DNA of 64,000 nt from Branchiostoma floridae (lineage: Eukaryota > Chordata > Leptocardii > Amphioxiformes > Branchiostomatidae), in contig NC_049989.1 of NCBI RefSeq assembly GCF_000003815.2, forward strand, positions 5,260,671 through 5,324,670, written 5' to 3'. The notes under the pieces were generated by a model. The model was not told the origin of the DNA. It saw nothing but the letters and a program-made list of their open reading frames with translations, and searched no databases. Each line of letters opens with the position of its first letter. Position 1 is the stretch's first letter. Shown in pieces: positions 5,719-32,406 of the stretch. Made by a program: the position numbers and the translations under genes.

Positions 5719-6025
5719 CTAGGAGTCCTGTATCGCCCGCGACATTGTCTCTCCGTCCTCTTTCATCGGTGATTCTCCGGTCGGATGCAGCCGACTTGTC
5801 TCCTGGTAATATCTCCTCGTGTAGAAATAAAACAGGATGATGGGAAAGATGGGCAGGCAGAGAAGCAGGTGAAACATGACCAGCAGTGTCACCCAGCCAG
5901 CGCCTTTGCCCCGCACGCTGAACCACGCGTATCCCGGCCGCCTGTACCAGGTACCCGTACAGCACACCTCACAACACTCGCAACACGAAGTCTCAGTGCC
6001 AGCTTCTAGCGACGATAGGGGATCT
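5719..6025 (-). CDS. CARD-kinesin A exon 15 (Cys cluster, membrane segment, stop)
   Basis: Acceptor CTTATTACAG; ends at a stop at 5719-5721. Encodes CCECCEVCCTGTWY, GKGAGWV, a span of about 24 hydrophobic residues ending FYFY, then a polar tail. Homologous to 28885-29433 of paralogue B. Confidence 0.82.
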
Positions 6026-9000
6026 CTGTAATAAGAACACAAATATTCTGTGAATAAATGAAGTCAATAGAAAATTGTCGTTCACTTATACCATCAAAAC
6101 AAGCAAGTTTTAATCTGATTCACGAATGAGCACAACTAACCTGTGTGGCGGAGTACTAGTTCTGGACCCATGGTTGGGCTTGACTGTTTGTGTATCACCA
6201 TCTGTCGCTGTCGCCTCGGTCTCGTCCTGAGCCTTTGTAACAAAGATAATGATTCTAAGTTGCAGACGTTGGGATACATAATTCGTCTATCTATCCGACG
6301 CAAAGCCAACGATATGTTACAGTTACATGGAACAGTTACATGGCAAGTATAAATTCAAAGACATAGTGTGTGAAAGATAGCAGAAATTGAGTCCCTATAC
6401 TTTCCCTTAAAGGACAGCATCAGAAAATCCTGAAATCATTATTTTCCAGTAGTTTACTCATTAAAAAGTTGATATACGTCAATTTTTACATTGATCCGCC
6501 TAATATGACCCTGTAGACACGTTTGAACTTCGCGCTCTCCTCCTCTCTCCCGCCGCGCTGGGCCATGACGTAATGGCCCCGTGCTGATCGTCTGACGTCA
6601 CGGATCCGAAACTTCTGGCCAGCCATTTTGCTCGGTGAACCTCGGTCCTCTCAGCGGTAAATAATCACTCCACCATTCTGGAGTTTAGTCCGCTGTTGTT
6701 GACAATTACCTTCGTGGACCTGTAAGTCGCGTTGTGAGCTGTCTACGAAGCCATAGTCCCCGGGAGACTGAACATGAATGAGTTTGTCTGCACGTAAACC
6801 GCGCGGCGACGGAACGAAATCAAAACAATGGTGGAGGGGGAGGTTCACGCACCGTGCCATTCTGGACTGTTACAGGAGCGAGTTCGAGTCAGTTCTTACC
6901 TTCTCCTTTCCGGACAGCACATCGATAATTACACGTAAGCTTCCACGAATTAGGGTTGAATTTACAGTTGTCCAACTAACATTGACTTAAAAAAAACCCG
7001 AGTTTTCGTGACATTTTTCCTCTGACAACATACCCTTGATCGCTACATATCGAACGATCCCGTTTTCGTGCCCAAACAGATAGCACCAAAACTTGAAAGA
7101 CTCGAGCGATTTACGCCGCGCCTTTCACTTTATTTTCTGTTTCTGAGGAAATTATCTGGACTGGCTGGTTTTTCTTGTAGCTTTGGCGGAGATTGTTGGG
7201 TGTTCAATCAAAACAAATCACGGACTNNNNNNNNNNNNNNNNNNNNNNNNNNNNNNNNNNNNNNNNNNNNNNNNNNNNNNNNNNNNNNNNNNNNNNNNNN
7301 NNNNNNNNNNNNNNNNNNNNNNNNNNGACCATACACTGTGTTGTTAATAACTTAAAGAATGATGATCGCAGGCTACATAAGTGGCTAATCGCTGTGAAGC
7401 TTCATATCAAGCCGTCATGGACAATTGACAAAATTCGTCAAAATTTCCATGTGGCGCGTGGATCTGCTCTGACCATTTTTCACCCGACTGTTGTTATGAC
7501 GGTGTTTGGGCGCGAAAATGGGATCGTTCGATATGTAGCGATCAAGGGTATGTTGTCAGAGGAAAAATGTCACGAAAACTCGGTTTTTTTTAAGTCAATG
7601 TTAGTTGGACAACTGTAAATTCAACCCTAATTCGTGGAAGCTTACGTGTAATTATCGATGTGCTGTCCGGAAAGGAGAAGGTAAGAACTGACTCGAACTC
7701 GCTCCTGTAACAGTCCAGAATGGCACGGTGCGTGAACCTCCCCCACCACCATTGTTTTGATTTCGTTCCGTCGCCGCGCGGTTTACGTGCAGACAAACTC
7801 ATTCATGTTCAGTCTCCCGGAGACTATGGCTTCGTAGACAGCTCACAACGCGACTTACAGGTCCACGAAGGTAATTGTCAACAACAGCGGACTAAACTCC
7901 AGAATGGTGGAGTGATTATTTACCGCTGAGAGGACCGAGGTTCACCGAGTTTGGCTGGCCAGAAGTTTCGGATCCGTGACGTCAGACGATCAGCACGGGG
8001 CCATTACGTCATGGCCCAGCGCGGCGGGAGAGAGGAGGAGAGCGCGAAGTTCAAACGTGTCTACAGGGTCATATTAGGCGGATCAATGTAAAAATTGACG
8101 TACATCAACTTTTTAATGAGTAAACTACTGGAAAATAATGATTTCAGGATTTTCTGATGCTGTCCTTTAAGTCTTGGGGTCTTCCATCTATCGCGTAGCT
8201 TTACTTGAAATGAAAACTCACCCTTCTCTCCTCGGCAGCCTTCGCCTGTTCCTTGAAAGCTTGTGCGAGGAAGTTAATCTCGATCTTCAAGTCTGCGTAG
8301 TTCGTCTGTAGCTTCTTGAATTCTTCATGATACTGTTTTAACAAAATAAATGAATAACTAAAACTGACATTCGTTGAATATGATACAAGAATTTTGCATT
8401 TTCGCTGAGGTGACGAAACTGTCACCAGGCATGAGATCAAGCGTTGACCTCTTATATGTAATGATATACTCACACTTTTATCAGTGATATCATCTCTGTT
8501 CCTCATGTCTTGTCGGATGTTCTCTAAGTGAGACTCCATCTCGTACCTCAACTCTCGGTTTAAAGTTCTCAGGTCCTCCTAAATGTTTCAAAGAGAGTAG
8601 AATAGTAACTTACTGTAAACATTGTTATCAATTGCCGAATCAAATCTTAATAGCGAAAGAATGCCTTTCATTGGTTTCATTTGACTTAAAAATGATAAGT
8701 GATCATAGAGCTACTGTACAATAGAACTTTTAGTTAAACGTCAGTCAATGCTTTGGCGAATCTGCATGGCAAGTCAATGCTTTCATTCTGTGGATATCTA
8801 TTTTTGTTCGCAGCATGCCATCGTTTGTAAGTGATCCCTTGGAAATCAGCTACCTAGCTAACTGAGGGGACCTTCCTAAAAAATTCAAAATAAAGTAAAT
8901 AAGTTTGTAAGCGGCGGCAAGGCCACTACAACTTGCTGCTTTTACAGAAGACAATGCAGGCTTCGTACCATTGCCAAGTTCATTTGTTGCACATGGTCGC

Positions 9001-12000
9001 TGAGCTGACCGGATGTGTCGTCACGTGTGTGCTCTTCCGCTGTCCGCTCCTTAATGTCCGTCAGCAGCTGTCTAGTCTGCAGTTGTTCATCCAAAACCTG
9101 CTGTTGCTTGCTGTGAACTTCCTCTAGCAACCTGTGTGATAGAATTGAAGCTTAATGCAAGTCATAACTTAAAACAGTTAATAAAACATAAAACAATGCG
9201 AACCTTAAGTAAAATAGCCAGTCAATGCGCTCATGGGCAAGGATGTCTCCGGGATCTGTCCTTCCATCTCCGTCCGTCCGTCCACCAGACGGAAATTTGC
9301 TTGTTGGGACAGAAAATAATTTACCCAATCTGTCCCCAAAATGACATGAAACTGTTGAAAATGGACATTACTAACAGTGGCTTAAAATGACATATTAAAC
9401 CAGGAAAATCAACAAAATGAGCTCCCGAACGATGAGTGGGACGGAAAGAATTTAAGCTGGAGAGAGTACCACACAATGTCAATATAAAATTAGATACTTC
9501 ATACCGACTAAATGTAACATGGTCCACTCTTTGGTAGCCTATGAGCTCGAGATTAGGGCCTCAAGCTTCATGAACACAACTGATATAGTCCGTGGCATAA
9601 CAAAACTACTCAGAACGTTACATACTTGTCTGTGGTCACCACGCTCTCTTTTGCTTGCTGTGCCTCCTGTTCGCTCTTCTCCTGTACGGTCTGCTGGAAG
9701 CCCTTCAGCTGTGCCGAGATCTCGTCCTTGATCTCTCGGCGCTCCTCCTCGAGCAGCCCGTCCAGCTTGGCGCGGAAGTCCTGCGCCGTGTTGGTCACGC
9801 TGAAGTTCACCAGCTCACGGACCCTGTCCACGTCAAACGACTCCTTCTGTTGGACAAATGGTATATCTTAGTTCAAGCACAAGAAAAGAGACGTCGATTT
9901 TCCCCTCATCCAAATACGGCATGAAATCTTATGTATATTGACATAGATTTTTTGCATTCGTGGCAATCAAAAATGTTGTCAAGGATGTAGGAAAGATACG
10001 TAGCTTTAACAGGCTAACATACTCTCCGCTTGTGTGGGAACCATGAAACAAATACTTAGTAGTCGATGGAACCCATGCTAGTGTAGCCTTTTTCTAGTAG
10101 GCATAAGAAAAGAGCCCATCAAAACATTTATTACGATTTGTTATCCTAAAACTTTATATATATGCATAAGTTATTTACCGACTCCGATGTAAGAGATGCC
10201 GTGTCTACTTCAGCCTCCGTCCCCACATCTGAGGTCTTCCGTGCCGACCTCAGTTTTTTGCCGTCTGCACTTTTCTTACGGCTCTTCTTCATTGTCTTTA
10301 TCTGTCTCTTCAAGTCTCCAATATCCTTCAAGTACCTGAAAAATAAAGAAACCACAAGCTGTTAGCTTTGTTTACTAATCAAGGCCGAGCAAAAGGAAAA
10401 GCCAACGAAAATTTAAGGAAGGAATTGGAAAAAGAAAAAAAGGAGGGAGAGTAGACGAAAGAAGCTCGAGGAACTGACGCATGCGCAGTGACGTACTTAA
10501 TAAGGAGAGACTCCAAAGGGCTGTAGTTGATCTTCGGCTTGACTTTGACCTTTTTCGCATCCGAAGCGAAGTCGAGAGACCTTCTTGTGTCCCGCAGCGA
10601 CTTCTTAGATGGATCCACATTGACGATGAAAGCGGTTTTCGAATTTCCCGTCAGAACCCTCTTCAGCAGCATAGTCAAACTGCTGCGTCTGAATTTAAAG
10701 TCCTGGCGGTTTTTAACGGACAGGTCTCGGATGACTTCCTTGAGGTGCAGAAGGGACATGTTGATGTTGGCGCCCTCGCGGAGCCCCTCGGCGTCCTTGT
10801 TGACTTCCCCTGCGGTCTCGCTGCCAGCCAGATCCACCAGGTACAACTCTCCCGTACGGCCTGATTCTGTCCCCTCTTTGTGGAGGATGCTCACCACAAC
10901 CTAGAGCGGAAAAAGGAATCTTTGTAAACAAAATTCGCTTGTAAACAACACTTGCTTGTAAACAACACTTTTTTTGCTTTGTTGTGGACGTACAGGATAT
11001 TTTTCGTTGTATACTTACATGTAGTTGTTATTATTATTATCATGATTATTAAACAACTCTTGCTTGTAAACAACACTAGCTTTATTTTTCATCATTTCTT
11101 TGCTTTATTGTGGATGACGTATAGCATACTTTTCATTGTATACTTACAAAAGTTATGTTTTTATTACCTGGAAGACCATATGAGACCGCGAACTGCGTTC
11201 GTTGACCTCCGTAGCTCTGCTTCTCCTTGACGCTGACGCCTCAAAGAACACCCTGATGGCGTCCATGGCGTTGGTGATGTTGTGTTTCTCCAGATTGTTA
11301 GCGAAGAACAAACTGTTGGACGGGTCTTCTCTGATGTCCAGTGACGGGCGTTCCTTCCTTGGCACCGTCAGATCAAACACCTATTTACAGAATGCACAAT
11401 AGAAATTGCAAAAGTGTATGAGTTTCGTTTGTTGATATAAAAACTCTCCACCAACACAAAAAAACTCCAAACTTTTGTTTGCCTTTAGTTCAACCTTCTT
11501 TCGGTTAAAAAAATCAGTCATTCAGGACACGTGACCTGCCAATAAAAAAGAGGAGGTAGAATCATTTTCTATGCCATCCTCCTGATTGATCAATATATAT
11601 CAATGTATATTTAACATATGCATGATAAGGGAAACATGATTATTTTTAGTTACCTTTTCATTGTAAATTTCGAGGACACTGACGAAGAAGGCGATGTTCC
11701 AATCCTTTTTCTTCTGAGACTTCAGGAACAGCTGTTTCAATGCTCTGTAGATGATGCCTTCTGTTTTCTCGTTCAGGTCTCTATCCGATGGTCCTGCCAT
11801 GGTGTAAGTCTTCCCGGAGCCAGTTTTTCCTACAATAGGCAATGAACCATGGAAATGTTCAGTTGGATAATGGCATACAACGATCGTTCTGTTGCCTTCT
11901 TCAGGGCATAGTGACAGCAAACTTTACAACATAATCACTATTCTTCCTGCGCTGTGATTGGCTTGTCCATGTGAGCTATCTATATAAGGCAAAAGCTGAC

Positions 12001-15000
12001 TGATTACTGCGTAGTTAGACAGACTCATCCCCATAGACTGGTCGCCGGCGCTAGGTGCTCTGAGGGCCGGGCAGAACGTGCAAGGCAGGCCGCCAGAACT
12101 GGGTTTTGCCGACGGAACCACCACAGGGCGCACGGGTGGGATCGTCGAGCGCCGTGGAGCCAAACGGCAGGAGCGAACAGTGGAGTGGGAGACCGAGGAA
12201 ACATTTTCCGGCATGGGAGCAAGTGTCGTGGTATCTGTTACCGTTGAAGGGAAAGGTTGGGCGTTAATTTTTGTGGTCGGAAAAGGGTAAACCAGGTGTG
12301 GTGATTGTCTGTCGGTATGCAAGAGGCACGTGCACGGCTTTATCTATGCAGGGCCCTTCTTCCTTCACGGATGGTCGTGGTGCTGCCTGGTGTGGCGTGA
12401 ATGCAGGGACGAATTTAGTCGGAATCTCTCTTAATTTTATTGTTGTTTCTTAGATATTGCAAGTCCTAACTACGCCAGTGAGAGCCCCGGCACCAGCAGC
12501 TTAGGGAAATCCAGCCGGGCAGGTCTGGGACACCAGGCGGCAGCAGGGCCGGGAAGCCAAGCGTCACGCGCAAGCCATGGGGGATTGACTCGGACCCGGG
12601 ACGTAGATGGCTAATCCGTCGGGGCAGACAACGAAGAAATACTGAGAGAAAAACAATGGGGAAGTACGGTACTTGTATGTGAGAAATTCTGAGAGAAAAA
12701 CAATGGGGAAAGTACGGTACTTGTATGTTACTGAGGTGACGAAGGTTGGCCCATTCACTGTTATTTTCCTGTGTACTTTTCGCTTATTTGGGTCAGAAGG
12801 TGGAAGCCAGGTGCGAGAGTTGTCTGTTGGTATGTGAGTTTGCACGTGCATGGCGTTTTCCGGCTGTGGGGCCCTTCTTCCTTCAGACCGAGCGTCGTGT
12901 GGCGGGCGTTGTGAATCAGAGTGCGACTGAAAACATATATTTTGTGAGTGACATGTTTAACTGGAATGCATTGGTATTCTCTCTGATGGTACAGGTCCGT
13001 TCGAAGCACCTGGGAACGCCGATGGAGCTTAGAACGACGGAGGGCCCGAACGCCATGCTAGGACACCGCCGCGGCCCAGAGAACAGCCGACGCGACAGGA
13101 AACAAGGGGATATGAGCGCCAGAGAACGCTGACGCTGGGTCGGAGATTTAGCACAGGCCGTCGGGGTTTGCCGTGCCGAACAACCACTGGCACGGAGCTC
13201 GAGGGAATGGACAGTAGTGGAGGCAGGGTGAAGGCTGCAACAGCGGTCGGAAGGGAAGGCGATATCAATGTGTGATTTCATGGTGTTATTACCTCCATGA
13301 AAAAATGGAGGTATAGTTTTGAGTGTGTCTGTGTGTGTGTCTGTGTGTGTGTGTGTCTGTCTGTGTGTCCGCATATTGTGGTCAGCATAACTTGAGAATC
13401 TCTTGATGGACTACGATGATATTTGGTATGTGGGTAGGGGTTGGGAAGACGAAGGTCAAGGTCAATTTTGGGCCCCCTGGTGTGTGACCTTGGTACTGCA
13501 GCGCAACTTCCGGTTTTGCTATCTCGGTGTTCTGAACATGCTATGGTCAAGATTTTTAAGTATTAGATATATCTTGTGCTCAGGAAAAAATGACATAAGT
13601 TTGGGCCCCCTAGCGTCTAGTTTTGGGATAGCAGGGGCATTTTTGTCAAAAACTTCTGACGAGGATAACTCCAGAAGGGAATAACGGATTTTCATCATTT
13701 TTGGTATGTAGGTACCTTAGACAATGTTTTACAAGATAAAATACTAATTATGCGAAATAGGAGTACATTTGCATAATTAATGAGAATATTCTATCATAGC
13801 AGTTTTTTCAATGTATCTCTTGTCCCGTACGTGATATGGTCGTGACATTTGGGTGGTAGATAGCTTTTAGCGTCATGACAAAGTGGGGCAAGTTTCAGTC
13901 CCCTAACATTCAATTGTGGAACTGCAGGGGCGTTTTTGTCAAGACACTCCAAAGAGGATAACTGCAGAAAGGAACGACGGATTGCCTGCATTTTAGGCAT
14001 GCAGGTAGCTTAGGCAAAGAAGTTCATAATGATATACATGTTATGCAAATGATGACTGAATTTGCATAATTAATGAGGAAATTGTACAGTTCCATTGTTT
14101 TCAATAACTGGACCTCAATACATGTAACACATGTTAATTATGATAGGTGGAATATAAGCAGATACCAAATATGGTAATGAGGAACTTATTTGCATAATTT
14201 ATGTAAAAATTGCAAAACCTCTTTATGATTAATAATGGGAATTTTATAATTGTAACATGTGAACGTTAGTCAATGATTAACAACACCATGCATACATTAT
14301 GTTAATGTCTTAGTCAATTGCATGAAATTTACGAAAGCTTTAAATTTTCATGGAGGTATGAGGTCGCCGAACTCTAGTTTTCGTTTTGTGTTTGACATTA
14401 ACTCTTACTGAAATTTCATTAAATTTGTTTTGCATCGTTTACATTGTGTAGCAACTGTAAGGTATGTTGATTCACGTGCGTGATTTTCCAGTGTCATAGT
14501 TATGGTAATTAGCGGTTTAGTTCCAGGCGTGGTACAAGCATTGTTCGCTACCAGCTGCAGGTAAGTATTGGCGTGTTCGTTCACGATGTGATTTGCTATT
14601 TTGGCTGGGCACATGATCCTGATGCAATTTGTATTTTTTCACAGGTGGTGTTAGTTTTTACTTGGGTTACATTATGGACTAGGTGGAGCCCGGCATTGTA
14701 TTGTGAAATATGGGACAGGCCCATTGTCTTGTACATGTGCATGTGGTGGTTGCAATATGGGCTGGACCCATGGTCTGGTGTAATCTGTGTAATAGAAAAT
14801 GGGACAGGCCCATCGTCTTGCTTAATTTGTGTAATAAATATGGGACAGGCCCATGGTCTTGTGTAATCTGTGTGATAAAATATGGGACAGGCCCATCGTC
14901 TTGTGTAATCTGTGTAATAAAATATGGGACAGGCCCATGGTCTTGTGTAATCTGTGTAATAAAATATGGGACAGGCCCATGGTCTTGTGTAATCTGTGTG

Positions 15001-18000
15001 ATGAAATATGGGACAGGCCCATCGTCTTGTGTAATCTGTGTAATAAATATGGGACAGGCCCATGGTCTTGTGTAATCTGTGTAATAAAATATGGGACAGG
15101 CCCATGGTCTTGTGTAATCTGTGTGATAAGATATGGGACAGGCCCATCGTCTTGTGTAATTTGTGTAATAAATATGGACAGGCAATTTATGGACTGTGTA
15201 ATAAATGTGGAAACTATGGAAGATGGGTGTAGGAGGAAGGATGCTTGACAATATACACGAGTTTCTGAACAGACTGAACAGATTCTGTGTTAATGATCAC
15301 ACTACAGAATGGAAGGAAACGTATGTTGGCATACCACAGGGTGCTATACTGTCACCTACGTTGCAACGCTTACACATGTGATATGCTGAACATGGAGAGT
15401 ACGCTGATGACAATATGCTGTGGAAAAGGGGTAAGGACATAGATGCACTAGTGAGTACAGTTCAGGAAGACATTAACAGTACACTACAGTGGTGCAATAA
15501 ATGGAATGCAAAGGTACAAGCTGCAAAAACTGAATACATGGTATTCCAGCCTCCTAACGAGCAGAGAAAGAAACTAGTACTACATATGGGAAACAGCACA
15601 TTGACAGAAGCAGAGGAAGAAAAAAAAAAGAAGATTAATGGGAATACACATGGACAGATATTTACATATGAGAGCACCAAACAAAGAAAGCATATAAGAC
15701 TCTGAAAGCAGTAGCAAGTGTGATGGACCCAAGAACTGGCCTTGATCAAAATACAGCTACACATGTGTACAAGACACTTGTACGCCCACATGCAGAGTTT
15801 GGAGCAGCTTTGATGGTTAATGCAACGGACACGGCAGTGAAGAAGTTGGAAGGGGTGCAGAGACAGGCGCTGTTGAAAATCACTGGGTGCCTATCACACA
15901 CTTCTACTGAGGCACTGGAGGTGCTAACAAACGTTATGCCCCTAGATATATACTTGAGAAGTATTCAAGCCATGGAGTATGCCAGACTCGTAATGAAGAA
16001 CAACAATACCAGGATAGGTCATATGATTAACAAGTGGCAAGCTACAGAACATGGAAGAACACCAACGACATTGACACTTTTACACAGCTGCTATAGACAT
16101 AACATGAGTAAAAGGGCAGCGGATCCAGTTGAGGAAGAGTTTCAGTACAAAAGTGAAAATATCTCCTTCAAACCTGTACGAACTCGAAAAGTCTTCAACA
16201 TAAGTGAGGTACTGAGCAAAAAGGAAGGAGCTGTCGAAATACAAAATATGCTTGGGAAGGTTACACACGAGGATGTCATCTGTTTCCAGGCTGAAGCGGT
16301 TAGAGACACAACAACAACAACGACAGGCCCATGTGACCCTGTGTAATATGTGTTACCAGGTAATATGAACCCATGATCCTAAGCATTGTGTAGCATGTGA
16401 GAGCCCGTTAGGAAAATAAGATTGGGATAACTTACAGGTAAAGAAAATATATGATAAGATTGGGGATATATGAGGATGAGATTGGGAAAAGGATTAATGG
16501 GGATATATGAGGATGAGATTGGGAAAAGGATTAATGGGGATATGTGAGAATGAGATTGGGAAAAGGATTAAGGAGAGATAAAAGATATATTGCATAGTTT
16601 AGTAATAGAAGGTTGCTGAGAGGCGCGACTTTAGATCGAGTAAGAATAGGTAACTATTCTTCCTGCGCTGTGATTGGCTTGTCCATGTGAGCTATCTATA
16701 TAAGGCAAAAGCTGACTGATTACTGCGTAGTTAGACAGACTCATCCGCATAGCCTGGTAGCTCGGCGAAAGGTAAACTATGAGTAGAGAAAGAGATGGGA
16801 GGGAGACACGAGAGGAGTGATGTTTGGAATTGGTACAATTCTGAAATGCTTGCAAATGTATTTGCGTTAAGTTTGTAAGATAACGAACGGATTTTATTAA
16901 GGCTGGTTTTAATGTATAGAAATGTGAATGGCGGCGCAAGTTAGTACTGCTGCTATGCCGTGCATCTGTAATAAGAGTTGTCAAATTTGTCTAGACGAGG
17001 GTCGAACAATTTCAATCCTCCCTCCCCTCCCACCCAACATCCGTTTTAACAGAGGAAAATGGATTCGAATCATTTCGCCGCGCGACTCCAGGCACTACCC
17101 CATAGCTTCATATGGATGAGCCAGTCACTGCGCAGGAAGAATAGGTGACTTTTATCTTTGGCTTAGGCCATGTTGATTTGATTATATTGATGACATCCTC
17201 CGGGAACTCCAAAACTGATGCGAGCGAGCGAATAAAAAAAAAGTTTGGCCAAAAAAAAAAGTTGCCTTCAGTATGAAATCAAAGTGGCCAGGAAGGTTGA
17301 ACATAGGACTAAACACACATAGTATGGTATACCAACAGTTAGGTGTAGGGACCAGTACATCATACGGGTGCAAAACATTTTTTTCTTCTTGGACCAATCC
17401 GACCTGAAAAACAGACCTGAAAAAACAGAGGAACAGGTTTCGCCAATTACAAAATGGACACACTATGTCGGCAGCCATTTGGGGTCTAACCGGGGGGCCA
17501 AGAAGACAACAAAAGCGAAGTCAAGTAGAGTTTATTGTCAATTGCACCAAGTTTCTACAGTCAAAGGTACAGAGACAGTTAGCCTTTATTACATGGAGAT
17601 GGGATTTTAAAATGAAGTGGGAGTCCAATAATCCACCAAACAGATTCCTTTGTAGCAAAATTGACCAATTACCATTGTTTTGAGTATTGCCAGTTCTCAA
17701 GTTTCCACAGACAATCAGGTCCAGGTTCATGTCCGGACCTGGAAATGATCCTCTGGACCTGAATTTTCTGTATTGGTACCTCCCCCAACCAAAAATAGAT
17801 TTTTTTCTTTCTGTCCTTTCACATCTTATTCTTTGACTTTAGATTCATTTTGGCATTCTATGGCATTAGTTATCTGTTTTCTGATACTTTTTTTTCAATC
17901 TATGGAATATTTGTGCTCATTTTACAGCTGCTTTGCACAATTTATTGTGTGGTCGAAAACTTTTTTTTTTTTTTGGAAATGGCCGAAAATTGGTGCGAGC

Positions 18001-19958
18001 GCGGATGTCATCCATATAATCAAATCAACGTGGCCTTATATGTTTATGGCAGTATCTCCATAGACCCTTTCATGACAACAATATGCTCTGGCTGAAGTTA
18101 ACGTGGCTGATGTTAAGTGACTCTTTTAAATAATTTGATGGTAGAGTTATGTGTGCTCACCGTAACAAAGTATACATCCGTTGTACCCCTCCAGAACTGC
18201 GTCCACAATGGGGCTGGCCATGGTGTTGAAAATCTCTGCCTGCGTGGTCTCCTCGGGGAACACCTTGTTGAAGATAAACTGTTGAACGCCATTGTTCATG
18301 GTAGGTACGGAGATCTGCAAAGAGTATAATTTAGCTTTTTTCATAGCCATATCTTATGACCACTTTTGATTCCTGATATTACATAGAGCATGGAATTCAC
18401 TTAAATTGGTAATCTAAGATGCTATATGGGTCTTTAGCTATGCTGGTTACAGGAAAAGAGAGAAAGCACACAAAGAATAGATGAAGAGTAGGTGAAGGTT
18501 AGACATCTACTTAATGAGATACACAAGATAAAGCAACTGGATAGTTAAGTGTTAAATGACTTTTGGAATACAGATCTTGCGCAGTCACTAACGAAGAGTA
18601 GTCTGTGGTAGCTACCTGAAACGTCTGACCATCAGTTGCTTGATCATAAGTAACAGTTATATAGCGTATAGAATAAGATCAAAATGTATTGTCTGAGATG
18701 TTAACCTGCATGAGACGTGTGTCCACAGTCAGGCACCCCTCCTCCTGCTCTTTCTCCTCTCCCCGCAAGGGGCGCACCCGGATGACCACCTGGATTCTGT
18801 CGTCCTTCTGTAGCATTCCTGTCAGAAGCATGGAGAAAATCGATCGGTCATTGGAAACCAATTTTCATCCTCAATTTACTTTATACCAATGGCTAATATG
18901 TATGTTGCACTATGTGTTAAAGAATAAAAACGCTATTTTTTCATGAATAAAGTTCTAGCGACTGAACCATATTTCTCGGGAATTTTTCATCCGAAAGCAA
19001 TGGTATAAGGTAGAGAAGATACACATTTACAATGTGAAGACGTAATGTAACAATATCTACTAGTGTATGTTATCAGAGATCGTGCTAAGATAACTATCAT
19101 CACATGCGCTGCTCTCCTCCCCACCTGTTCCCCCCACCACGACCCTGTCCAGCTCGGTGACCAGGTCCGAGTAGTCGGCCGCCTCACACAGCAGCAGGGA
19201 GTCCCGGAAGACCTTGAAGGCGCGCGCACCTCTCCTGGGGAGGATTTCCAGCAGAACGGACGCGCGCTGCTTAGTGTCGTTCTCGGGGTCCATGATCTCA
19301 TCCACGTCCCTGTATGGTTATATGGGGAAAATGCTTACTTTTCAGTCACATGATTTAGTGACCGCCATCTTTATTTATTGAAAATGACAACAAGTCATTA
19401 CACTGGGCCAGCCTAGGCAGTCTATTCAAGCTGATGACGGCTGACCCACAAAGATACAACAAACAAATCTAAATTACACATATGTACATAATAGGCCACA
19501 TAGGCTACGTAGGCTATGAGGAGCAGATGGAAGGTGCTGTAAATCGGTTTGTTGATGTTAAAAATGAATGCAGAGCGTCTGAGAGTTTTTGGACCGCCAT
19601 CTTGGTAGGTTAAAGACACGTGCACGTACAGACTGTACTTTCAGTTAGTTTCGTTTACTTCGAATTCATAATTTAACGTTATTCCTTTTGTTTCTTCCGC
19701 TCAAAATGCTCAAGAAATCTAGCCATCTAGCATATGCCTAACGGAAAATGATAAATAACGAATGAGTAAACAACCTAGAGTAAAGAAAACAAGAGTTCTG
19801 TGCCCTCATATTCATATAAAACCGAAAATCCTGCTTCAGAACCTTAGACAGCCGCTAGGGACCAATGACCTAACACTTTGCCAACACCAGCCCACCATAT
19901 CATCATGATCCATCCACAGCTTCTCGAGTATGCTGTTCATAAACAAACAAACACACAT

Positions 19959-20009
<51 letters not shown>

Positions 20010-22082
20010 AAAAAACAGACAGACAAATAACCTCTAAAACACAACCCTCTAAACGACAATGACAACATCTAGGCGCACCTGTCGCTGATGACCCTTTCCT
20101 GTAGAAGATGGTCCAACACGTGACCAGTCTGTAACCTCAGCACGATGTGGTCACGTGTCAGCCGTAGTCTGTCCCGCTGTTCGTTATCCATCTCACCAAC
20201 ATCCGGGGTATCTGCGCCGTCACTACGTGCCGACTGCGGAACGTCATCTTCATACAAACTTGATCTGTGAAATGATGTTTCGTTCAAAGGAAATAAGGAA
20301 ATAACGTTGTATTGACGTTAATTCTCTTTGAAGTAATACGCACACAGTGTACGTACAGCAATAAGGATGCATAAAATAGTTAATCCTTTTGTATATCAAT
20401 ATGTGTACATACACAGTGAATACATATTGTGTATATGTGCATTTTCTTTCGCAGTTCTTTTAATTCAAGATGTTTTCACGATGTTTTAAATTCGCGGTTG
20501 AAAACAGTCATTTGTGATTTCATTCAGTTTATAGTGTCCCAAAACTCTGCTCCTCACTTATCTACATAAAAGATATACCTTTAGATGTCCAGGTTCCTGT
20601 AATAACCATATCTTAGTCCTATTTCTTTTCTCAATCACGAAATAACTCTCTCTTGTGGTTCAGCTTTTGCTGATTTTCTTGAGATATATACAAGTTGTTC
20701 TCTGTATTCCTTTCTTTGGGCTTAGGTGGTCTGTGTGTTCTGTAGTTTTGGCTTTGCATGCTTAAGTAGTCCGCATATTCGGTAGTTTACACTGTAGCTT
20801 ATTTACTCTCCACCTATTTCAGCTGCCGTGAAAACTAGGGTGTCTGCATGCTACCACCAGCTAACTCCAGCAGAATCGATGGAAATCTTATTTGCTAGTA
20901 CATTGTGATGAATTATCTATCCAGAACATGAAAGGAGACGAAAATCGCGAAGTTTTCTAGTTTACTTTCTCCCTTTCCAACAGCTTTTAGCGGTGCTTTT
21001 GATCCGATTTCATCCACTCCAATGTTCTTCACAAAACCGTTAAGAGCAAACATAAGGCCTTGATACAAACCAATACTTTACAATAGCGGCCTTCTTGCCC
21101 CAGTAGACACAGCGGTTGTGCAACTGTTTGAACCGTTATCGGTTCAACTGTGTAGTGGGGTCTTAGCGGTTGAGATGGGTTACGATTACAAACACTTTCC
21201 ACAAGTCACAGCAACATTCCTTTCTTCCCTGTCGTTTCAGTTAACAAACAAATGCCTCTAGAAATCATTGATTTTGTTGTTGTCGTTGCTGTTGCTAGTA
21301 AAGTAAGTATATTCGACAACGTTTTGTTTGAATCAAGATGTTGCTCGGGCCATATATAACTGTCTGCGTCAACAAAAAAGTGTCAGAAGTGATCACCGAA
21401 GCCAAACAATAACAAATGGCAACATGCAAAATGTTTTCTCTGACCTATTTTACAGGACAGTACATGTAACATCACCATAGTGGGAGCAATAAGTCGACCG
21501 ATCAAGAAACGTGATTAATGGCCCGTTATTTTACAAGCCCTCATATGAAAAATAAAGTCACGAATGGCTGTTGGGCTGGCACAATAACAAGAGGGAAAAT
21601 CAGTTATGAAGAAGTGTGTCACGCGTATTGTATGACGCTCGGGGTATCAAATGTGGTTCACAGTCCCAAATCTGAAGGTATATTTTGGTACTAAAGCTGT
21701 CGACGTCACCATATCTGTTCATTTCATAACCTTAGAAAACCCAGGAGTTATATAGAATACATACAAATATTGTTATGTCTATATGAAACAGCGTGAATCT
21801 TTTATCATTCATTTTTATGGCACAAAATGAATGAAAAGTTGTTGTTTTTGTTCATTGCATTCGTTCATATCCAGCCAGGTCACATGTGTCAAAGCAGAAC
21901 GCACAACGTTTTACAATGAACGATATTACCTGTACTATTGTACCAAATATTATGATTATCTATTTTACAAATAGCAGAAATACTTGACACCTGTATCGTA
22001 GAATATCTCACCTGGATTCCGTCCTCGCGCCAGCTTTACTGCTGGCTGGAAGTTCCTCACAAGATGCCCGATTGTCCGACAT
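5719..22082 (-). CDS. CARD-kinesin A: CARD + kinesin motor + coiled coil + Cys cluster + membrane segment (15 coding exons, 885 aa)
   Basis: Spliced exons (5' to 3'): 22012-22082, 20079-20264, 19125-19309, 18706-18818, 18161-18314, 11654-11829, 11168-11380, 10497-10900, 10179-10335, 9626-9846, 8969-9131, 8474-8578, 8222-8332, 6141-6232, 5719-6025. They total 2658 nt with phases matching at each junction. Domains: CARD about residues 52-140 (helix motifs VLDHLLQERVIS, LLEILPRRGARAFKVFRDSL); kinesin motor about 153-490 with P-loop GKTGSGKT 237-244, switch I NERSSRSH 355-362, switch II DLAGSE 389-394; charged heptad-like helices about 500-753; Cys cluster CCECCEVCC 798-806; GKGAGWV 823-829; one hydrophobic span about 828-852; 33-residue tail. 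Expected role: ATP-driven microtubule motility with CARD-CARD recruitment. The membrane anchor and immune function are inference. Exons 14-15 could be a separate gene, but paralogue B shows the same arrangement. Confidence 0.85.
6141..6232 (-). CDS. CARD-kinesin A exon 14 (Thr-rich linker)
   Basis: Acceptor TTACAAAG, donor GTTAGT. Encodes AQDETEATATDGDTQTVKPN... a low-complexity linker. Phase fits exon 13 (0) and exon 15 (2). No start codon fits upstream in this frame, which argues for splicing from exon 13. Confidence 0.7.
6411..8166. mobile_element. Foldback element with ~650-bp near-identical inverted arms, TTAA-flanked
   Basis: Arms at about 6411-7066 and 7510-8166 are near-identical reverse complements, so the same peptide frame appears on both strands (6651-6860 minus and 7720-7929 plus). 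Ends are AGGACAGCATCAG and its complement, each abutting TTAA, the target site of piggyBac-type elements. The centre contains a 100-N gap. The arms are GC-rich with TGACGTCA (CRE-like) near 6595 and 7978, and look like captured host DNA. It lies in the last long intron of CARD-kinesin A. No transposase was seen. Confidence 0.85.
7227..7326. other. Assembly gap (100 N)
   Basis: Run of N inside the foldback centre, where a hairpin would stall sequencing or assembly. Confidence 1.
8222..8332 (-). CDS. CARD-kinesin A exon 13 (stalk end)
   Basis: Acceptor TAAAACAG, donor GTGAGT. Encodes YHEEFKKLQTNYADLKIEIN and FKEQAKAAEERR; phase 0. No counterpart was found in paralogue B. Confidence 0.8.
8474..8578 (-). 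CDS. CARD-kinesin A exon 12 (stalk)
   Basis: Acceptor ACATTTAG, donor GTGAGT. Encodes EDLRTLNRELRYEMESHLEN and RNRDDITDKS; phase 0 on both sides. Confidence 0.82.
8969..9131 (-). CDS. CARD-kinesin A exon 11 (stalk)
   Basis: Acceptor ATCACACAG, donor GTACGA. Encodes LLEEVHSKQQQVLDEQLQTR... ending QQMNLAM; Gln/Glu-rich coiled-coil-like helix. Confidence 0.82.
9626..9846 (-). CDS. CARD-kinesin A exon 10 (stalk)
   Basis: Acceptor TCCAACAG, donor GTATGT. Encodes VRELVNFSVTNTAQDFRAKL and LLEEERREIKDEISAQLKGF, charged and strongly helical. Confidence 0.85.
10179..10335 (-). CDS. CARD-kinesin A exon 9 (basic linker)
   Basis: Acceptor TTTTTCAG, donor GTAAAT. Encodes YLKDIGDLKRQIKTMKKSRK followed by an acidic Ser/Thr-rich stretch; likely the post-motor hinge and start of the helical stalk. 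Confidence 0.85.
10497..10900 (-). CDS. CARD-kinesin A exon 8 (switch II and microtubule-binding helices)
   Basis: Acceptor CGCTCTAG, donor GTACGT. Encodes GELYLVDLAGSETAGEV, NINMSLLHLKEVI, FRRSSLTMLLKRVLTGNSKT and FASDAKKVKVKPKINY, closing the motor fold. Confidence 0.96.
11168..11380 (-). CDS. CARD-kinesin A exon 7 (switch I)
   Basis: Acceptor GTAAATAG, donor GTAATA. Encodes VFDLTVPRKERP and RATEVNERSSRSHMVFQ, with the nucleotide-sensing NxxSSRSH intact. Confidence 0.95.
11654..11829 (-). CDS. CARD-kinesin A exon 6 (P-loop)
   Basis: Acceptor CTATTGTAG, donor GTAACT. Encodes KTGSGKTYTMAGPSDRDLNE and VLEIYNEK. The usual P-loop Gln is Lys (GKTGSGKT). The preceding intron (11830-18160) is 6.3 kb and full of mobile elements. 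Confidence 0.95.
11938..12032. repeat. ~95-bp direct repeat, left copy (TATA-like)
   Basis: The segment beginning ACTATTCTTCCTGCGCTGTG and containing CTATATAAGGC is repeated almost exactly at 16653-16747. It is the end of a mobile element; see the right copy. Confidence 0.8.
12033..13285. repeat. GC-rich repeat-derived block with internal duplications, no gene recognised
   Basis: Open frames on both strands are low-complexity and unrecognisable. A ~47-bp unit (GAGAGAAAAACAATGGGGAA ... TACTTGTATGT) is tandemly duplicated at 12640-12730. A diverged ~130-bp unit with the shared motif GGGCCCTTCTTCCTTC occurs at about 12290-12420 and 12795-12920. Probably the body of an unclassified element. Confidence 0.5.
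13291..14375 (+). mobile_element. Hairpin-headed interspersed repeat, copy 1
   Basis: Starts with a hairpin ACCTCC...GGAGGT (13291-13312), then a GTGTGTCTG tract, then long AT-rich sequence with recurring TTTGCATAATTAATGAG-like motifs, ending near TTTTCATGGAGGTATGAGG. Other copies are listed at 27095, 35580, 43790, 47180 and 49002. Confidence 0.65.
13321..13370 (+). repeat. GT/GTCT microsatellite
   Basis: TGTGTCTGTGTGTGTGT-type tract belonging to the hairpin-headed repeat. Confidence 0.9.
14708..15177. repeat. 42-bp minisatellite, about 12 units
   Basis: Unit TATGGGACAGGCCCATSGTC... repeats with period 42 (starts at 14839, 14881, 14923, 14965, 15007, with 41-bp variants). Because 42 is a multiple of 3, several frames on both strands stay open for over 100 codons; these are artefacts, not genes. 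A degenerate unit recurs at about 16320-16350. Confidence 0.95.
15250..16345 (+). pseudogene. LINE reverse-transcriptase remnant (GxPQG and YADD regions)
   Basis: Reads GIPQGAILSPTL at about 15338-15363 (RT motif), then after two small frame breaks EYADDNMLWKRG (catalytic YxDD region, about 15400-15430), then the thumb and post-RT region ending with GVQRQALLKITGCLSHTSTE. At least two frameshifts and an internal stop make it non-functional. No endonuclease domain was seen. It lies in intron 5 of CARD-kinesin A. Confidence 0.85.
16462..16575 (+). repeat. 37-bp tandem repeat, ~3 units
   Basis: Units starting GGGGATATATGAGGATGAGA at 16462, 16499 and 16536 with period 37. Confidence 0.9.
16653..17146. 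mobile_element. ~500-bp MITE-like element; left end matches the repeat at 11938
   Basis: Left end CTATTCTTCCTGCGCTGTGA is matched in inverted orientation by TCACTGCGCAGGAAGAATAG near 17120-17146, so the unit has terminal inverted repeats. The first ~95 bp are nearly identical to 11938-12032. No coding capacity. Confidence 0.65.
17147..18160. other. Intron 5 remainder of CARD-kinesin A, nothing recognised
   Basis: AT-rich, with homopolymer runs near 17230-17262 and 17963. Short open frames here have no recognisable motifs. Confidence 0.5.
18161..18314 (-). CDS. CARD-kinesin A exon 5 (motor core up to P-loop)
   Basis: Acceptor TCTTTGCAG, donor GTGAGC. Encodes FNKVFPEETTQAEIFNTMAS and VLEGYNGCILCYG; the P-loop codon is split at the junction. 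Confidence 0.95.
18706..18818 (-). CDS. CARD-kinesin A exon 4 (motor strand 1)
   Basis: Acceptor TCTGACAG, donor GTTAAC. Encodes DDRIQVVIRVRPLRGEEKEQ, the first beta strand of kinesin motors (IxVxxRVRPL). Confidence 0.93.
19125..19309 (-). CDS. CARD-kinesin A exon 3 (CARD, C-terminal half)
   Basis: Acceptor CATACAG, donor GTGGGG. Encodes DVDEIMDPENDTKQRASVLL then EILPRRGARAFKVFRDSLLL, matching CARD helices 3-5 of caspase and adaptor CARDs. Confidence 0.9.
19961..20005. repeat. AC microsatellite
   Basis: About 22 AC units followed by an A run, in intron 2 of CARD-kinesin A. Confidence 0.98.
20079..20264 (-). CDS. CARD-kinesin A exon 2 (CARD, N-terminal half)
   Basis: Acceptor TTTCACAG, donor GTGCGC. 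Encodes an acidic lead and CARD helices 1-2 with LTRDHIVLRLQTGHVLDHLL. Confidence 0.88.
20265..22011. other. Intron 1 of CARD-kinesin A
   Basis: No coding signal or clear repeat structure recognised over about 1.75 kb. Confidence 0.55.
22012..22082 (-). CDS. CARD-kinesin A exon 1 (start codon)
   Basis: ATG at 22080-22082; encodes MSDNRASCEELPASSK... and ends at a consensus GTGAGA donor in phase 2. Paralogue B has a matching first exon (MDN..., ending in ES plus a split codon). Confidence 0.75.
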
Positions 22083-28884: not shown

Positions 28885-29433
28885 TTATACTGGGCTCCCC
28901 AGTCCAGATGTTCGGTCCCCCAGTCCCGATGTTGGGTCCCGAGGTGCCGGTGCTGGGTTGGGTCCCGCGGTGCTGGTGTTCGGTCCCCCAGTCCCGGTGT
29001 TGAGTCCCGCGGTGCTGGTATTCGGTCCCCAAGTCCCGGTATTGGGAGCAGCGGTGCCGGTGTTGGTACCCGCTGTGCCGGTGTTCGGTCCCCCAGTCCC
29101 GGTATTGGGAGCAGCGGTGCCGGTGTTAATTGCCGCGGTGCCGGTGTTGGTACCCGCCGTGCCGGTGTTGGGTGCTGGTGAATTGCGTGGACAGCAGATG
29201 GCGCGTTCACAACAGCGTACACAGAAGTTGACGTTGTGTTGCTGGCCTTCTGGACCAACCTTCCCCTGTCTGCACTCCAAGCACAGGACGATGAGCAGAA
29301 AAGTAACCGCGTGCAGAATAAGTAGGAGTACCACCCAACCCGCGCCCTTGCCACTCAGGCTGTACCACTTGTGCCCAGACTTCCAGTACCACAGACCGCT
29401 GCAGCAGACCACGCAACATTCGCAACACGGGAC
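28885..29433 (-). CDS. CARD-kinesin B exon 13 (Cys cluster, membrane segment, NTGT repeats, stop)
   Basis: Acceptor TTGCCGACAG. Encodes VPCCECCVVCCSGLWYW, SLSGKGAGWV, a hydrophobic span (VVLLLILHAVTFLLIVLCL), CVRCCERAICC, then about 14 tandem NTGTxxx heptads degrading into NTSTAG and DPTSGLGDR units before the stop. The first half is clearly homologous to 5719-6025. Confidence 0.82.
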   Translation of the reverse strand, partial: VPCCECCVVCCSGLWYWKSGHKWYSLSGKGAGWVVLLLILHAVTFLLIVLCLECRQGKVGPEGQQHNVNFCVRCCERAICCPRNSPAPNTGTAGTNTGTAAINTGTAAPNTGTGGPNTGTAGTNTGTAAPNTGTWGPNTSTAGLNTGTGGPNTSTAGPNPAPAPRDPTSGLGDRTSGLGSPV

Positions 29434-32406
29434 CTGTCGGCAAATGTTGTAGAAAAATACCCATCAGATTACGGTAGCAATCTGGAGACAGTACTAGTAT
29501 GTTATTAGCAACACATCAGAACGTTAAATGGAGGTCCCGTGTTTGAGGAGAGCCACACCTCGAGCACGTTAAAGAACCCGCCGCATTTATCGAAACAAGA
29601 AATCTTTTTAAAAAAGCTGTGCCTTGCCGCGTGGTAGGAATATCGTCAGGAAAAGGTAGGTCGGCACTTCAAGCCCGGCAAGGCAAAATGCTGTGCCTTG
29701 GCGTGCAGTAAGGATAATTTGCTTGTCTGCTAAATACGTATTATTAAAATTTTGACACTAGAAACCACGAAAATGAGAAAATCTTACGATTATATTTGAA
29801 AGGCAACACTCTGAAAATACAAATGGCATTCTGTGCCCATCATCAACCCAAAATACGATCTTTTTCACGTGTTTACGGTATAGGCCGCATGTAGCCAGTC
29901 ACAAGTATGCAAATGAGCTAACTATATTTAGTACCATGCAAACACCGCATGTGACCATGTTGGAACACGTTTTCAGCTGTGTTTGCCGACGAATTCCTGC
30001 CGTTAGGGAGAATTTGCGGCCTCAAAACTGATATCACAAGTGAAGCGAAGTTATAGTTGTTGTTTTACTTTCATTATTTTGAAAGAACTTTGTAGCGTCA
30101 TAGCGAGATCAACCGATATGTTTGGATGACATAGCGGCGCGGAAATATATGCTTCGACGGCGTGAATTTTGAGCAAAAATACCGCAGAATTATGGTTAGA
30201 AAACCCAAGGAGCTTTTATCCTTGGAAAACCCCACATTTTATTATTTCAGGGGTCCCTGGTCCAATTTAAAAGAAATAATAAGTGTACCGTCCAAAATAA
30301 GAACGTAGCGGGTGGATTCTGCGGCTGAAAAAAATAAACGTAACTGTTACCTAAACATGCACTCTTGAAAATGCAGACCAAAAAGTCCCAAAGGTGGGTT
30401 TTCATGGTTCTGGTCGCATGACGAAAATATTCTTATATCAAATGGATGTTATAAAAAGGTAAAAGGACAATTGAAAAAAAAAAACTTTCACTAGGCGGGT
30501 TCGAACCGGGGTCGGCAGTGTGGCGACTAATCACGCTAACCACTACGCCATGCTAACATTCACAGTACCAACTTGTATTAACAGGTATCCAAATCTAAGG
30601 CATAACTTGAATACGTCCGTTCATTCCAAGATTCAAAGATTCTAATGTCTAATCCTCCGAAAAATGTCTAAACAACTGTTACTTATGTGAAAAGTTTGTA
30701 ATGAGACGAGAGCCTGGCAAAATAATGTCGGGAAAGGCCATGTTACAAGCTCTGATTGGCTGGCTGGAATCTCGGTGTGTCAATAGCCTGTTTAGGCTAT
30801 AGGCACACTCAGTGTGTCAATAGCCACAGCGATATAACAAAATGATCCTAAATATTATCTATTGCGACTTCTCGTGTGACGTTTTGAGCTGGCGCTCTCC
30901 TAAACTCACGTTAGCGTTTTGCTGCGGTCTCGGAAGGCCTCTCCAACGTTTTGATGACGTCATGGCTACTTATATATTCACATACAATTTATTAGCCTGA
31001 TTTGGAAATTGTTTCATCTTTATGAATAGCTAATGCAATTCTTGTTGCGAGATAATGCACTTGATTTTATGTCACTCCAAATGAATTTGGAATTTTACCA
31101 TACAAACGCTTCATTTATTCAATGTAACCAAATATTAAATGCTTTTAGAACCGACCGCAAACAGAAACAAATACGTAAAATGGACGGTTTAAAATTCAAC
31201 AGGGATGTACCATTGTCTGCCTGAGCCGTCAAACTTGTCCATGAGAAAGGCGATTTGGAAGGGCCTTTGAAAGGGTCTTTGGAAGAGCAAGGTTAACAGG
31301 TCCGTCCGTCCGTCCAAGGAAGAAAGCTGGCGTAAAGCCTTGCCTGGCGGCAAGGCAAAAAGTAGGGGTCATTCCCGTTGCAAGTGGATCAGTTGAATCC
31401 GTCCGAATAATATGTAGTATGTAATAACTTTATTGCAGGATCATACCCAAAGGCTAATTGAAAAGCAAGACAGTGGTATGGTATACAATGGTATACAGTG
31501 GAATTGAAATACATGTATATGGATACGTTAAAATAACGTAAAGCGAAATCATATCTCTTTTACATCTATATGTCTATTTAAACTATCTGGGGGGTTCGAC
31601 TTCTTTTCCAAATATGCAGTTTGTACTCTTCAGTACAAATCCAGTGTGTTTCGCCGGCGGTTTACCGGTATGCAATGCAAACAAACAAACGAAACACAAC
31701 GACAATATCAAATACCAAAAGATCGACCAAGAAGTCGACTGCAATGTTTGTCCACCATGGTTGATTTCTGTAGAAACCGACAAAACCCAGTTACGTCCTG
31801 CGGGTCTTCCATAAGGGATACCCTATGGACCAACTACAACGTAATGCAATTGGACTTCTGTCCTTCCTGCAAACGTTGTCTGATTGAAGAACACGTGAGA
31901 CATTCGCGGGGGCTGAGGAGTGACGTAAGGATGATAAAAAAAACTACCGGGTTGTAGAAAATGTACTTACACATACGCCATTCCTGTTATCCAAGCTTTT
32001 CTTGATGCTGTCCAACTTGTCCTCCAGATTGCTTATTAATTCAAGATTGAAACGTATCATCTCCTCCTAGAAAACATCAATGCAATCAGTTTACATATTG
32101 TCAGCTGACTTGACCTTTAGTACTCACGATAAAGGATGTAACTAAGTCAATATACGTTTACACAATACGTCGTGTAATAACTTTTGGGAATGTATTTGGA
32201 ATTGCTAAGAGTAGCTGGACAAACATGTTGAAGCGTAATATGTGAAAACCTCTAGTGGTCTACCTAGTTTAAGGGGAGAACATTAAAGGGTTATTAAAGC
32301 CACTACTGCCTCGTGAATCGCATCACTATTAGTAAGTTTTCCATTGAGTAGAATTATTATTCTTTCCTTTGATGTCATATCCCCCGGCCATTTAGCACAG
32401 TGCACA

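Follow-up and report, generated by a model that had tools for sequence, protein, structure and literature searches.

A stretch of 64,000 nucleotides of the Branchiostoma floridae genome, hereafter the window, raises the question of whether a CARD and a kinesin motor are encoded there in one gene and, if so, what such a protein might do. An initial annotation had proposed a phase-consistent minus-strand model of 15 exons and 886 codons. Rebuilding this model from the sequence recovered it exactly: the gene, which we call copy A, lies on the minus strand from 22082 to 5719, and its 15 coding exons comprise 2658 nt, or 886 codons including the stop. All 14 introns are of the GT-AG type and their phases agree. 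The encoded protein of 885 residues is 100% identical, over its whole length, to the Branchiostoma floridae database entry P0001, "kinesin-like protein KIF3A". The splice model, Pfam searches and AlphaFold2 prediction agree with the earlier view that a single gene carries a CARD, a motor, a stalk, a cysteine cluster and a hydrophobic segment, and they place the CARD first, ahead of a short linker of low confidence, the motor and a long helix, with the Cys cluster, the hydrophobic helix and a short tail at the end. The AlphaFold2 model was built from a 32-row alignment in which few rows cover the CARD or the tail; its mean pLDDT is 72 and its pTM 0.54, with confidence below 50 at residues 1-43, 145-152, 527-558, 660-667, 709-715, 763-824 and 861-885.

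Exon 1 of copy A (22012..22082; all exons given here are on the minus strand) encodes the N-terminus, residues 1-24, at low model confidence. The first half of the CARD begins at about position 20191 (residue 49) in exon 2 (20079..20264), and the second half, in exon 3 (19125..19309), runs to residue ~143. A profile search, the check on which the earlier claim of a CARD at residues ~52-140 depended, matched PF00619 to residues 55-126 (E 3.5e-11) at 43.4 bits, above the curated cut-off of 23.9; a second CARD model, PF16739, stayed below its cut-off (19.7 vs 28.2). AlphaFold2 places six helices within residues 51-141, the first in two pieces (51-59/61-67, 71-79, 85-91, 98-112, 114-126 and 133-141), with block mean pLDDT of 85-95 for residues 51-140. 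When the CARD alone was used to search PDB sequences, the best match was a de novo designed protein (8.3e-7), followed by RAIDD (6.3e-6), ICEBERG (0.0018), CARD11 (0.002) and Apaf-1 (~0.01). The CARD families of RAIDD, CARD11 and Apaf-1 are known for partner recruitment. The Pfam scan of copy A gave no match to caspase, NB-ARC, death domain or MAGUK parts. The sixth CARD helix ends at residue 141 and the first motor strand starts at 157 in the model, with a gap of ~13 residues between CARD and strand.

The linker and first motor strand are encoded by exon 4 (18706..18818), and the motor continues through exons 5 (18161..18314), 6 (11654..11829) and 7 (11168..11380) to its end in exon 8 (10497..10900). 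Pfam matched the Kinesin profile PF00225 to residues 161-484 above cut-off (E 2.5e-93), covering profile positions 1-327 of 327. This full-length match, together with the presence of all three expected motifs, bears out, in large part, the intact motor described previously: the P-loop GKTGSGKT is found at residues 237-244 (exon 6), the switch I motif NERSSRSH at 355-362 (exon 7) and the switch II motif DLAGSE at 389-394 (exon 8). In an alignment with 25 non-lancelet kinesins, 40 motor columns show no variation among those 25, and copy A has the shared residue in 38 of them. The exceptions are Ser448, replaced by Val, and Gly450, replaced by Thr, in what we take to be the L12/alpha5 stretch; the Lys and Thr of the P-loop and both switches are unaltered. 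A glutamine within the P-loop, present in 24 of the 25 non-lancelet rows and replaced by Ala in one, is Lys or Arg in all seven lancelet rows. Judged from the alignment, the motor of copy A likely cycles nucleotide, and the departures at Ser448, Gly450 and the P-loop Gln could weaken its motility. The best PDB sequence matches of the motor were KIF4, chain 7tqx_K, KIF3B, OSM-3 and KIF15. A Foldseek search with the whole copy A model returned 1108 matches, and the best 50, those listed, are kinesin structures by title, bar two sperm axoneme chains, one of which is KIF9 by PDB sequence search; no solved CARD structure is among these 50.

Behind the motor, exon 9 (10179..10335) encodes a neck helix and a basic linker, and the predicted helical stalk is encoded by exons 10 (9626..9846), 11 (8969..9131), 12 (8474..8578) and 13 (8222..8332). 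The stalk had been proposed to be helical, and AlphaFold2 likewise predicts helices at residues 559-660 and 667-762, with moderate confidence. The end of the helix and a low-confidence linker lie in exon 14 (6141..6232). Exon 15 (5719..6025) then encodes the cysteine cluster CCECCEVCC (residues 798-806; 5959..5985), the motif GKGAGWV, a hydrophobic helix, the C-terminal tail and the stop, so that both motifs named in the initial annotation are present. Its single hydrophobic span was also recovered: hydropathy analysis gives one strong candidate, with a best 19-residue mean of 2.67 at residues 831-849 against 1.08 for the next best, and AlphaFold2 predicts a C-terminal helix at 826-861. On the strength of this hydropathy and the predicted helix, the candidate membrane helix (residues 828-850; 5827..5895) may be a membrane anchor, and ~35 residues follow the hydrophobic span. 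A database search with residues 680-885 recovered, among 393 candidate proteins, three, namely the query and its two orthologues, and none outside the CARD-kinesin family; the reach of this search was short, as it missed even the more distant lancelet relatives P0006 and P0007 described below.

Several features of the copy A introns were recorded alongside the gene model. Intron 13 contains a large palindrome (6406-8171) with arms of 368, 220 and 89 nt that are 97-100% complementary, and an N run lies near its centre. The 6.3-kb intron 5 carries a 42-bp minisatellite of ~10 copies (14754-15183) and, on the plus strand, an open frame encoding 224 aa (15672-16346). By eye we take this frame to resemble the end of a non-LTR reverse transcriptase; it had no Pfam match at E 0.1.

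Upstream of copy A on the same strand, from 59533 to 28885, the window holds a diverged tandem CARD-kinesin gene, copy B, which was absent from the earlier description. It was delineated by exon comparison with copy A, tblastn, Pfam and a search of the species' own genome, and its model is incomplete: exon 7 is cut by an assembly gap and the ends of the stalk exons are unset, so the full frame is unproven. Exon 1 lies at 59466..59533, and the two halves of the CARD are encoded by exons 2 (54661..54813) and 3 (53799..53983). Exon 4 (50429..50541) holds the motor start, which is followed by exon 5 (45442..45595), exon 6 with the P-loop (44680..44855), exon 7 (42719..42892), exon 8 with a switch II of DLAGTE (41076..41479) and exon 9, the neck (40328..40397). 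The gap interrupts switch I and extends from 42718 downwards, at least to 42690. Phases of exons 1-9 match those of copy A, bar the exon 7 end inside the gap. Translation of exons 1-6 gives both a CARD (8.4e-9) and a Kinesin match (2.8e-38) above Pfam cut-offs, and the P-loop, GQTGSGKT, keeps the usual Gln. A stalk match was found by tblastn at 35806..35940. The last open frame (28885..29463) encodes CCECCVVCC, GKGAGWV and a hydrophobic segment, past which, at 28909-29173, it continues as Thr/Gly/Ala-rich repeats derived from a 21/63-bp minisatellite; these repeats could be glycosylated if they lie on the far side of a membrane.

The divergence of the two copies was measured by the NG86 method. 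Throughout, dN is lower than dS: the two values, in that order, are 0.33/1.00 for the CARD, 0.14/0.47 for motor exons 4-6, 0.19/0.80 for exon 8, 0.31/1.15 for the tail and, less marked, 0.54/0.91 for the N-terminus; these values carry no confidence interval, and with dS of ~1 close to saturation the ratios are rough. Exon 5 of the two copies (18161-18314 vs 45442-45595) shares an identical run of 65 nt, and identity is 85% in exon 6 vs 71% in CARD exon 3. The likeness of exons 5-6 looks like the outcome of either gene conversion confined to the P-loop region or strong constraint.

Related proteins were sought in public databases and in the 513 Mb assembly of the species' own genome. The whole-protein database search scored the 8000 candidates sharing most words with the query, of which 2308 passed, and it is blind, as are our other protein searches, to proteins of other lengths. 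Among the best 120 of these 2308 matches, six proteins carry PF00619 with a kinesin motor, all from Branchiostoma. Two of them are full-length orthologues of copy A: P0002 from B. lanceolatum (93% identical) and P0003 from a floridae x belcheri assembly (92%). P0004-P0007 are more distant lancelet proteins, of which P0004-P0006 have a CARD and P0007 does not; both the CARD and the Kinesin domain are thus above Pfam cut-offs in five of the six relatives (P0002-P0006). The Cys/membrane tail is found in P0006 and P0007 and not in the P0004 and P0005 models. A search with the CARD region alone recovered five proteins among 214 candidates, P0001-P0004 and P0006, and missed P0005. Two oddities were seen among the distant proteins. 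P0005, from B. belcheri, has an extra N-terminus of ~210 residues (1-210) with no Pfam match above cut-off, which is either an extra domain or a merged model, and the stalk of P0007 starts with many ADATTGVL-type repeats.

Comparison of copy A with P0002 and P0003, respectively, revealed that conservation is unevenly distributed. Identities are 331/337 and 329/337 in the motor, 250/270 and 243/270 in the neck and stalk, 86/95 and 87/95 in the CARD and 38/47 and 39/46 in the N-terminus, and the linker at 763-797 is the least kept (23/33 and 21/33). The Cys cluster (798-806) is identical in both (9/9 each), as is the pre-membrane stretch at 807-827 (21/21 each), and the membrane span (828-850) matches at 22/23 and 23/23, for totals of 52/53 and 53/53 over this tail. 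Since tail identity is near-complete in the orthologues, the tail seems to be as constrained as the motor. The charge pattern of the CARD is less stable: in copy A helix 3 is acidic and helices 4 and 5 are basic, copy B keeps this at helices 3 and 4 and not at helix 5 and has a basic helix 2, and the pattern is mostly lost in P0005 and lost in P0006. A classical charge-complementary CARD surface was therefore rejected as a family trait, being only partly kept between paralogues, and no claim of assembly made here rests on it.

To place the motor among kinesins, a tree was built from 34 motors chosen from the 120 listed matches, seven from lancelets and 27 others, with names as in the sources. 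All seven lancelet motors fall into one clade with support of 1.0 and a long branch; they are 32-40% identical to the 27 non-lancelet motors and stand outside any stable kinesin family. The clade joins KIF18B, a kinesin-8, with a local support of 0.92, on a long branch and with sparse sampling. The database names of these proteins were rejected as family assignments because the motor lies outside the KIF3 and KIF4A groups: it is outside the KIF3A/KIF3B group, contrary to the B. floridae name KIF3A, outside the KIF4A clade, contrary to the B. lanceolatum name KIF4A, and outside the KIF3 group, contrary to a second B. lanceolatum name, kinesin-II 85 kDa subunit-like.

Searches of the own genome, in which only the best candidates were scored, gave 48 exon-level matches to the whole protein, and CARD, motor and tail occur together only at the two copies in the window; a search with the tail likewise found two places, both inside the window. 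Further kinesins were also matched by the whole protein. The same search found seven other CARD-like places, with 32-43% identity to the copy A CARD (C15, C233, C6, C11:16.02 Mb, C7 and C236), which are candidate relatives of the captured CARD. None of the seven lies within 100 kb of a kinesin match, the nearest being ~128 kb away on C7, so among the best candidates this genome offers no further instance of a CARD neighbouring a kinesin.

What might such a protein do? The reading we lean towards, with moderate confidence, is that these genes encode a lancelet family of C-terminally membrane-anchored kinesins whose N-terminal CARD docks CARD partners. The C-terminal helix would fix the protein in the membrane of an organelle or vesicle, with fatty acids on the cysteines just ahead of it adding to the hold; the motor and CARD would face the cytosol and the last ~35 residues the other side. 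The long stalk would dimerise the protein, and the motor would pull the anchored membrane, its cargo, along microtubules. The CARD would dock or co-assemble with another CARD protein, be it an adaptor, a caspase or a sensor, so that the organelle would serve as a moving platform on which a CARD complex sits, or the clustering of CARDs would gate the number of engaged motors. For the CARD itself we favour a role in recruiting partners to the front of the moving membrane; it may instead dimerise or restrain the motor, or act as a switch. The sequence itself shows the gene structure, the domains, their conservation and their joint duplication; of this proposal we infer the joint transcript, membrane insertion, acylation, dimerisation, motility, the CARD partner and the direction of control. 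In a stronger version, which we think rather unlikely, the membrane-anchored kinesin would be activated or clustered by oligomerisation of the death fold at its head, and complex-bearing organelles would move when a CARD sensor fires. If the protein is functional, it becomes testable whether moving a death-fold complex, or its membrane, is itself a signalling step, and the CARD-kinesin would offer a component, made by nature, through which CARD assembly could be coupled to transport.

The alternative that fares best, although we consider it doubtful, is that the protein transports cargo like any ordinary kinesin and is unconnected with death or immune signalling, its CARD being no more than an added module for dimerisation or autoinhibition. 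The CARD adjoins the first motor strand, where a folded domain could act mechanically, the motor and tail are better conserved than the CARD, and the charged CARD faces differ between paralogues, all of which would fit such a role. However, the CARD is still identical to that of the orthologues at nine-tenths or so of its positions (86/95 and 87/95), and by sequence it matches the CARDs of RAIDD, CARD11 and Apaf-1. It is improbable, in our estimate, that the protein is instead a static membrane-bound CARD scaffold whose kinesin head serves as a nucleotide-gated microtubule anchor and not as a moving motor. Such a loss of movement could be read from the lancelet-specific changes at the P-loop Gln, alpha4 and L12/alpha5, and a CARD combined with a C-terminal membrane helix recalls the layout of MAVS; but the retention of 38 of 40 invariant columns by copy A, the usual P-loop Gln of copy B and the 98% identity of the motor to its orthologues speak for a head kept as a motor.

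All of these readings presuppose one fused gene. An artefact in which two adjacent genes, one for a CARD protein and one for a kinesin, were wrongly merged, by the same error in several lancelet annotations, has some points in its favour. A study by Banyai and Patthy reports that shared fused gene models of lancelets can be shared errors, a convergence of error documented for these animals (PMC4967905). An ATG stands just before the motor in exon 4 of both copies, another in-frame ATG lies at the end of copy A intron 3, intron 3 of copy B (3257 nt) has five AATAAA/ATTAAA words, and the P0007 model is without a CARD. Against this, the exon 3 donor and exon 4 acceptor are used in the same phase in copies A and B, and sequence likeness changes at these borders: the copies match at 24/30 positions before the exon 3 donor and 8/30 beyond it, and at 12/30 upstream of the exon 4 acceptor and 22/30 after it. 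This comparison was ungapped, in 30-base windows over nine exons, and not every border is clean; values of 8-14/30 occur where exons 1, 2 and 5 start and where exons 7 (at the gap) and 9 end, and the match beyond the exon 4 donor is 16/30. Moreover, the exon 4 ATG, from which a separate motor gene could start, is absent from P0002, P0004, P0005 and P0006 and present in P0003, copy A has an intron 3 of 306 nt without AATAAA or ATTAAA, the CARD accompanies the motor in each of the tandem copies as well as in six of the listed lancelet proteins, and none of the seven other CARD-like places found in the genome lies within 100 kb of a kinesin match. On the comparison of the two copies, the CARD and the motor are duplicated as one unit. 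Since full-length orthologues and the tandem copy B repeat the CARD, motor and tail, a one-off error of gene prediction is unlikely to account for the fusion, and we regard a merge shared by all these models as very improbable; that CARD and motor are fused in one gene is a strong inference, short of proof.

The initial annotation had also held that no protein of this architecture is described. That part stands for the open-access papers searched, in whose listed titles and abstract openings there is no description of a CARD-kinesin protein (bioRxiv preprints and most subscription papers fall outside this scope); the main texts of PMC6071037 and PMC4967905 do not contain the word "kinesin", nor PMC2575513 the word "motor". 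It needs qualifying for sequence databases, where CARD-kinesins are already deposited as generically named kinesins and come with both Pfam domains precomputed. Since the domain set is already there, the novelty lies in the architecture and biology and not in the sequence.

Compared with known systems, the lancelet protein resembles the kinesin superfamily in having a full motor, P-loop and both switches included, ahead of a neck and a predicted helical stalk, but it has a CARD in front and a Cys/hydrophobic tail behind. With CARD proteins such as RAIDD, Apaf-1 and CARD9/11 it shares a PF00619 match, six predicted helices and sequence similarity, but here the CARD is attached to a motor. MAVS has an N-terminal CARD and a C-terminal membrane helix and no motor; the lancelet protein has the CARD and, as a candidate, the membrane helix in common with it and adds the motor, and we claim no membership. 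Kinesins with a C-terminal lipid attachment are represented by KinesinCaaX of Trypanosoma brucei and CENP-E, which carry a farnesyl group in place of a hydrophobic helix, and the passages on them mention no CARD (PMC3206815). Lancelets join CARDs to other unusual partners as well: a pangenome study describes CARD+AIG1+HINT fusions, in which the partner is AIG1 (a GIMAP GTPase) and not a motor, and separately reports that dispensable genes of B. belcheri are enriched for the GO term kinesin complex (PMC12373286), an enrichment possibly linked to copy-number variation of CARD-kinesins. Finally, NLRP3 and pyrin inflammasomes have been proposed to assemble close to the microtubule-organising centre together with components of the aggresome pathway; HDAC6 connects cargo with dynein in this pathway, whose importance is, according to the paper's title, context-dependent (PMC10850954). 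In those inflammasomes the motor and the death-fold complex are separate molecules, whereas in the lancelet protein the CARD and the motor are apparently one chain with its own putative membrane anchor.
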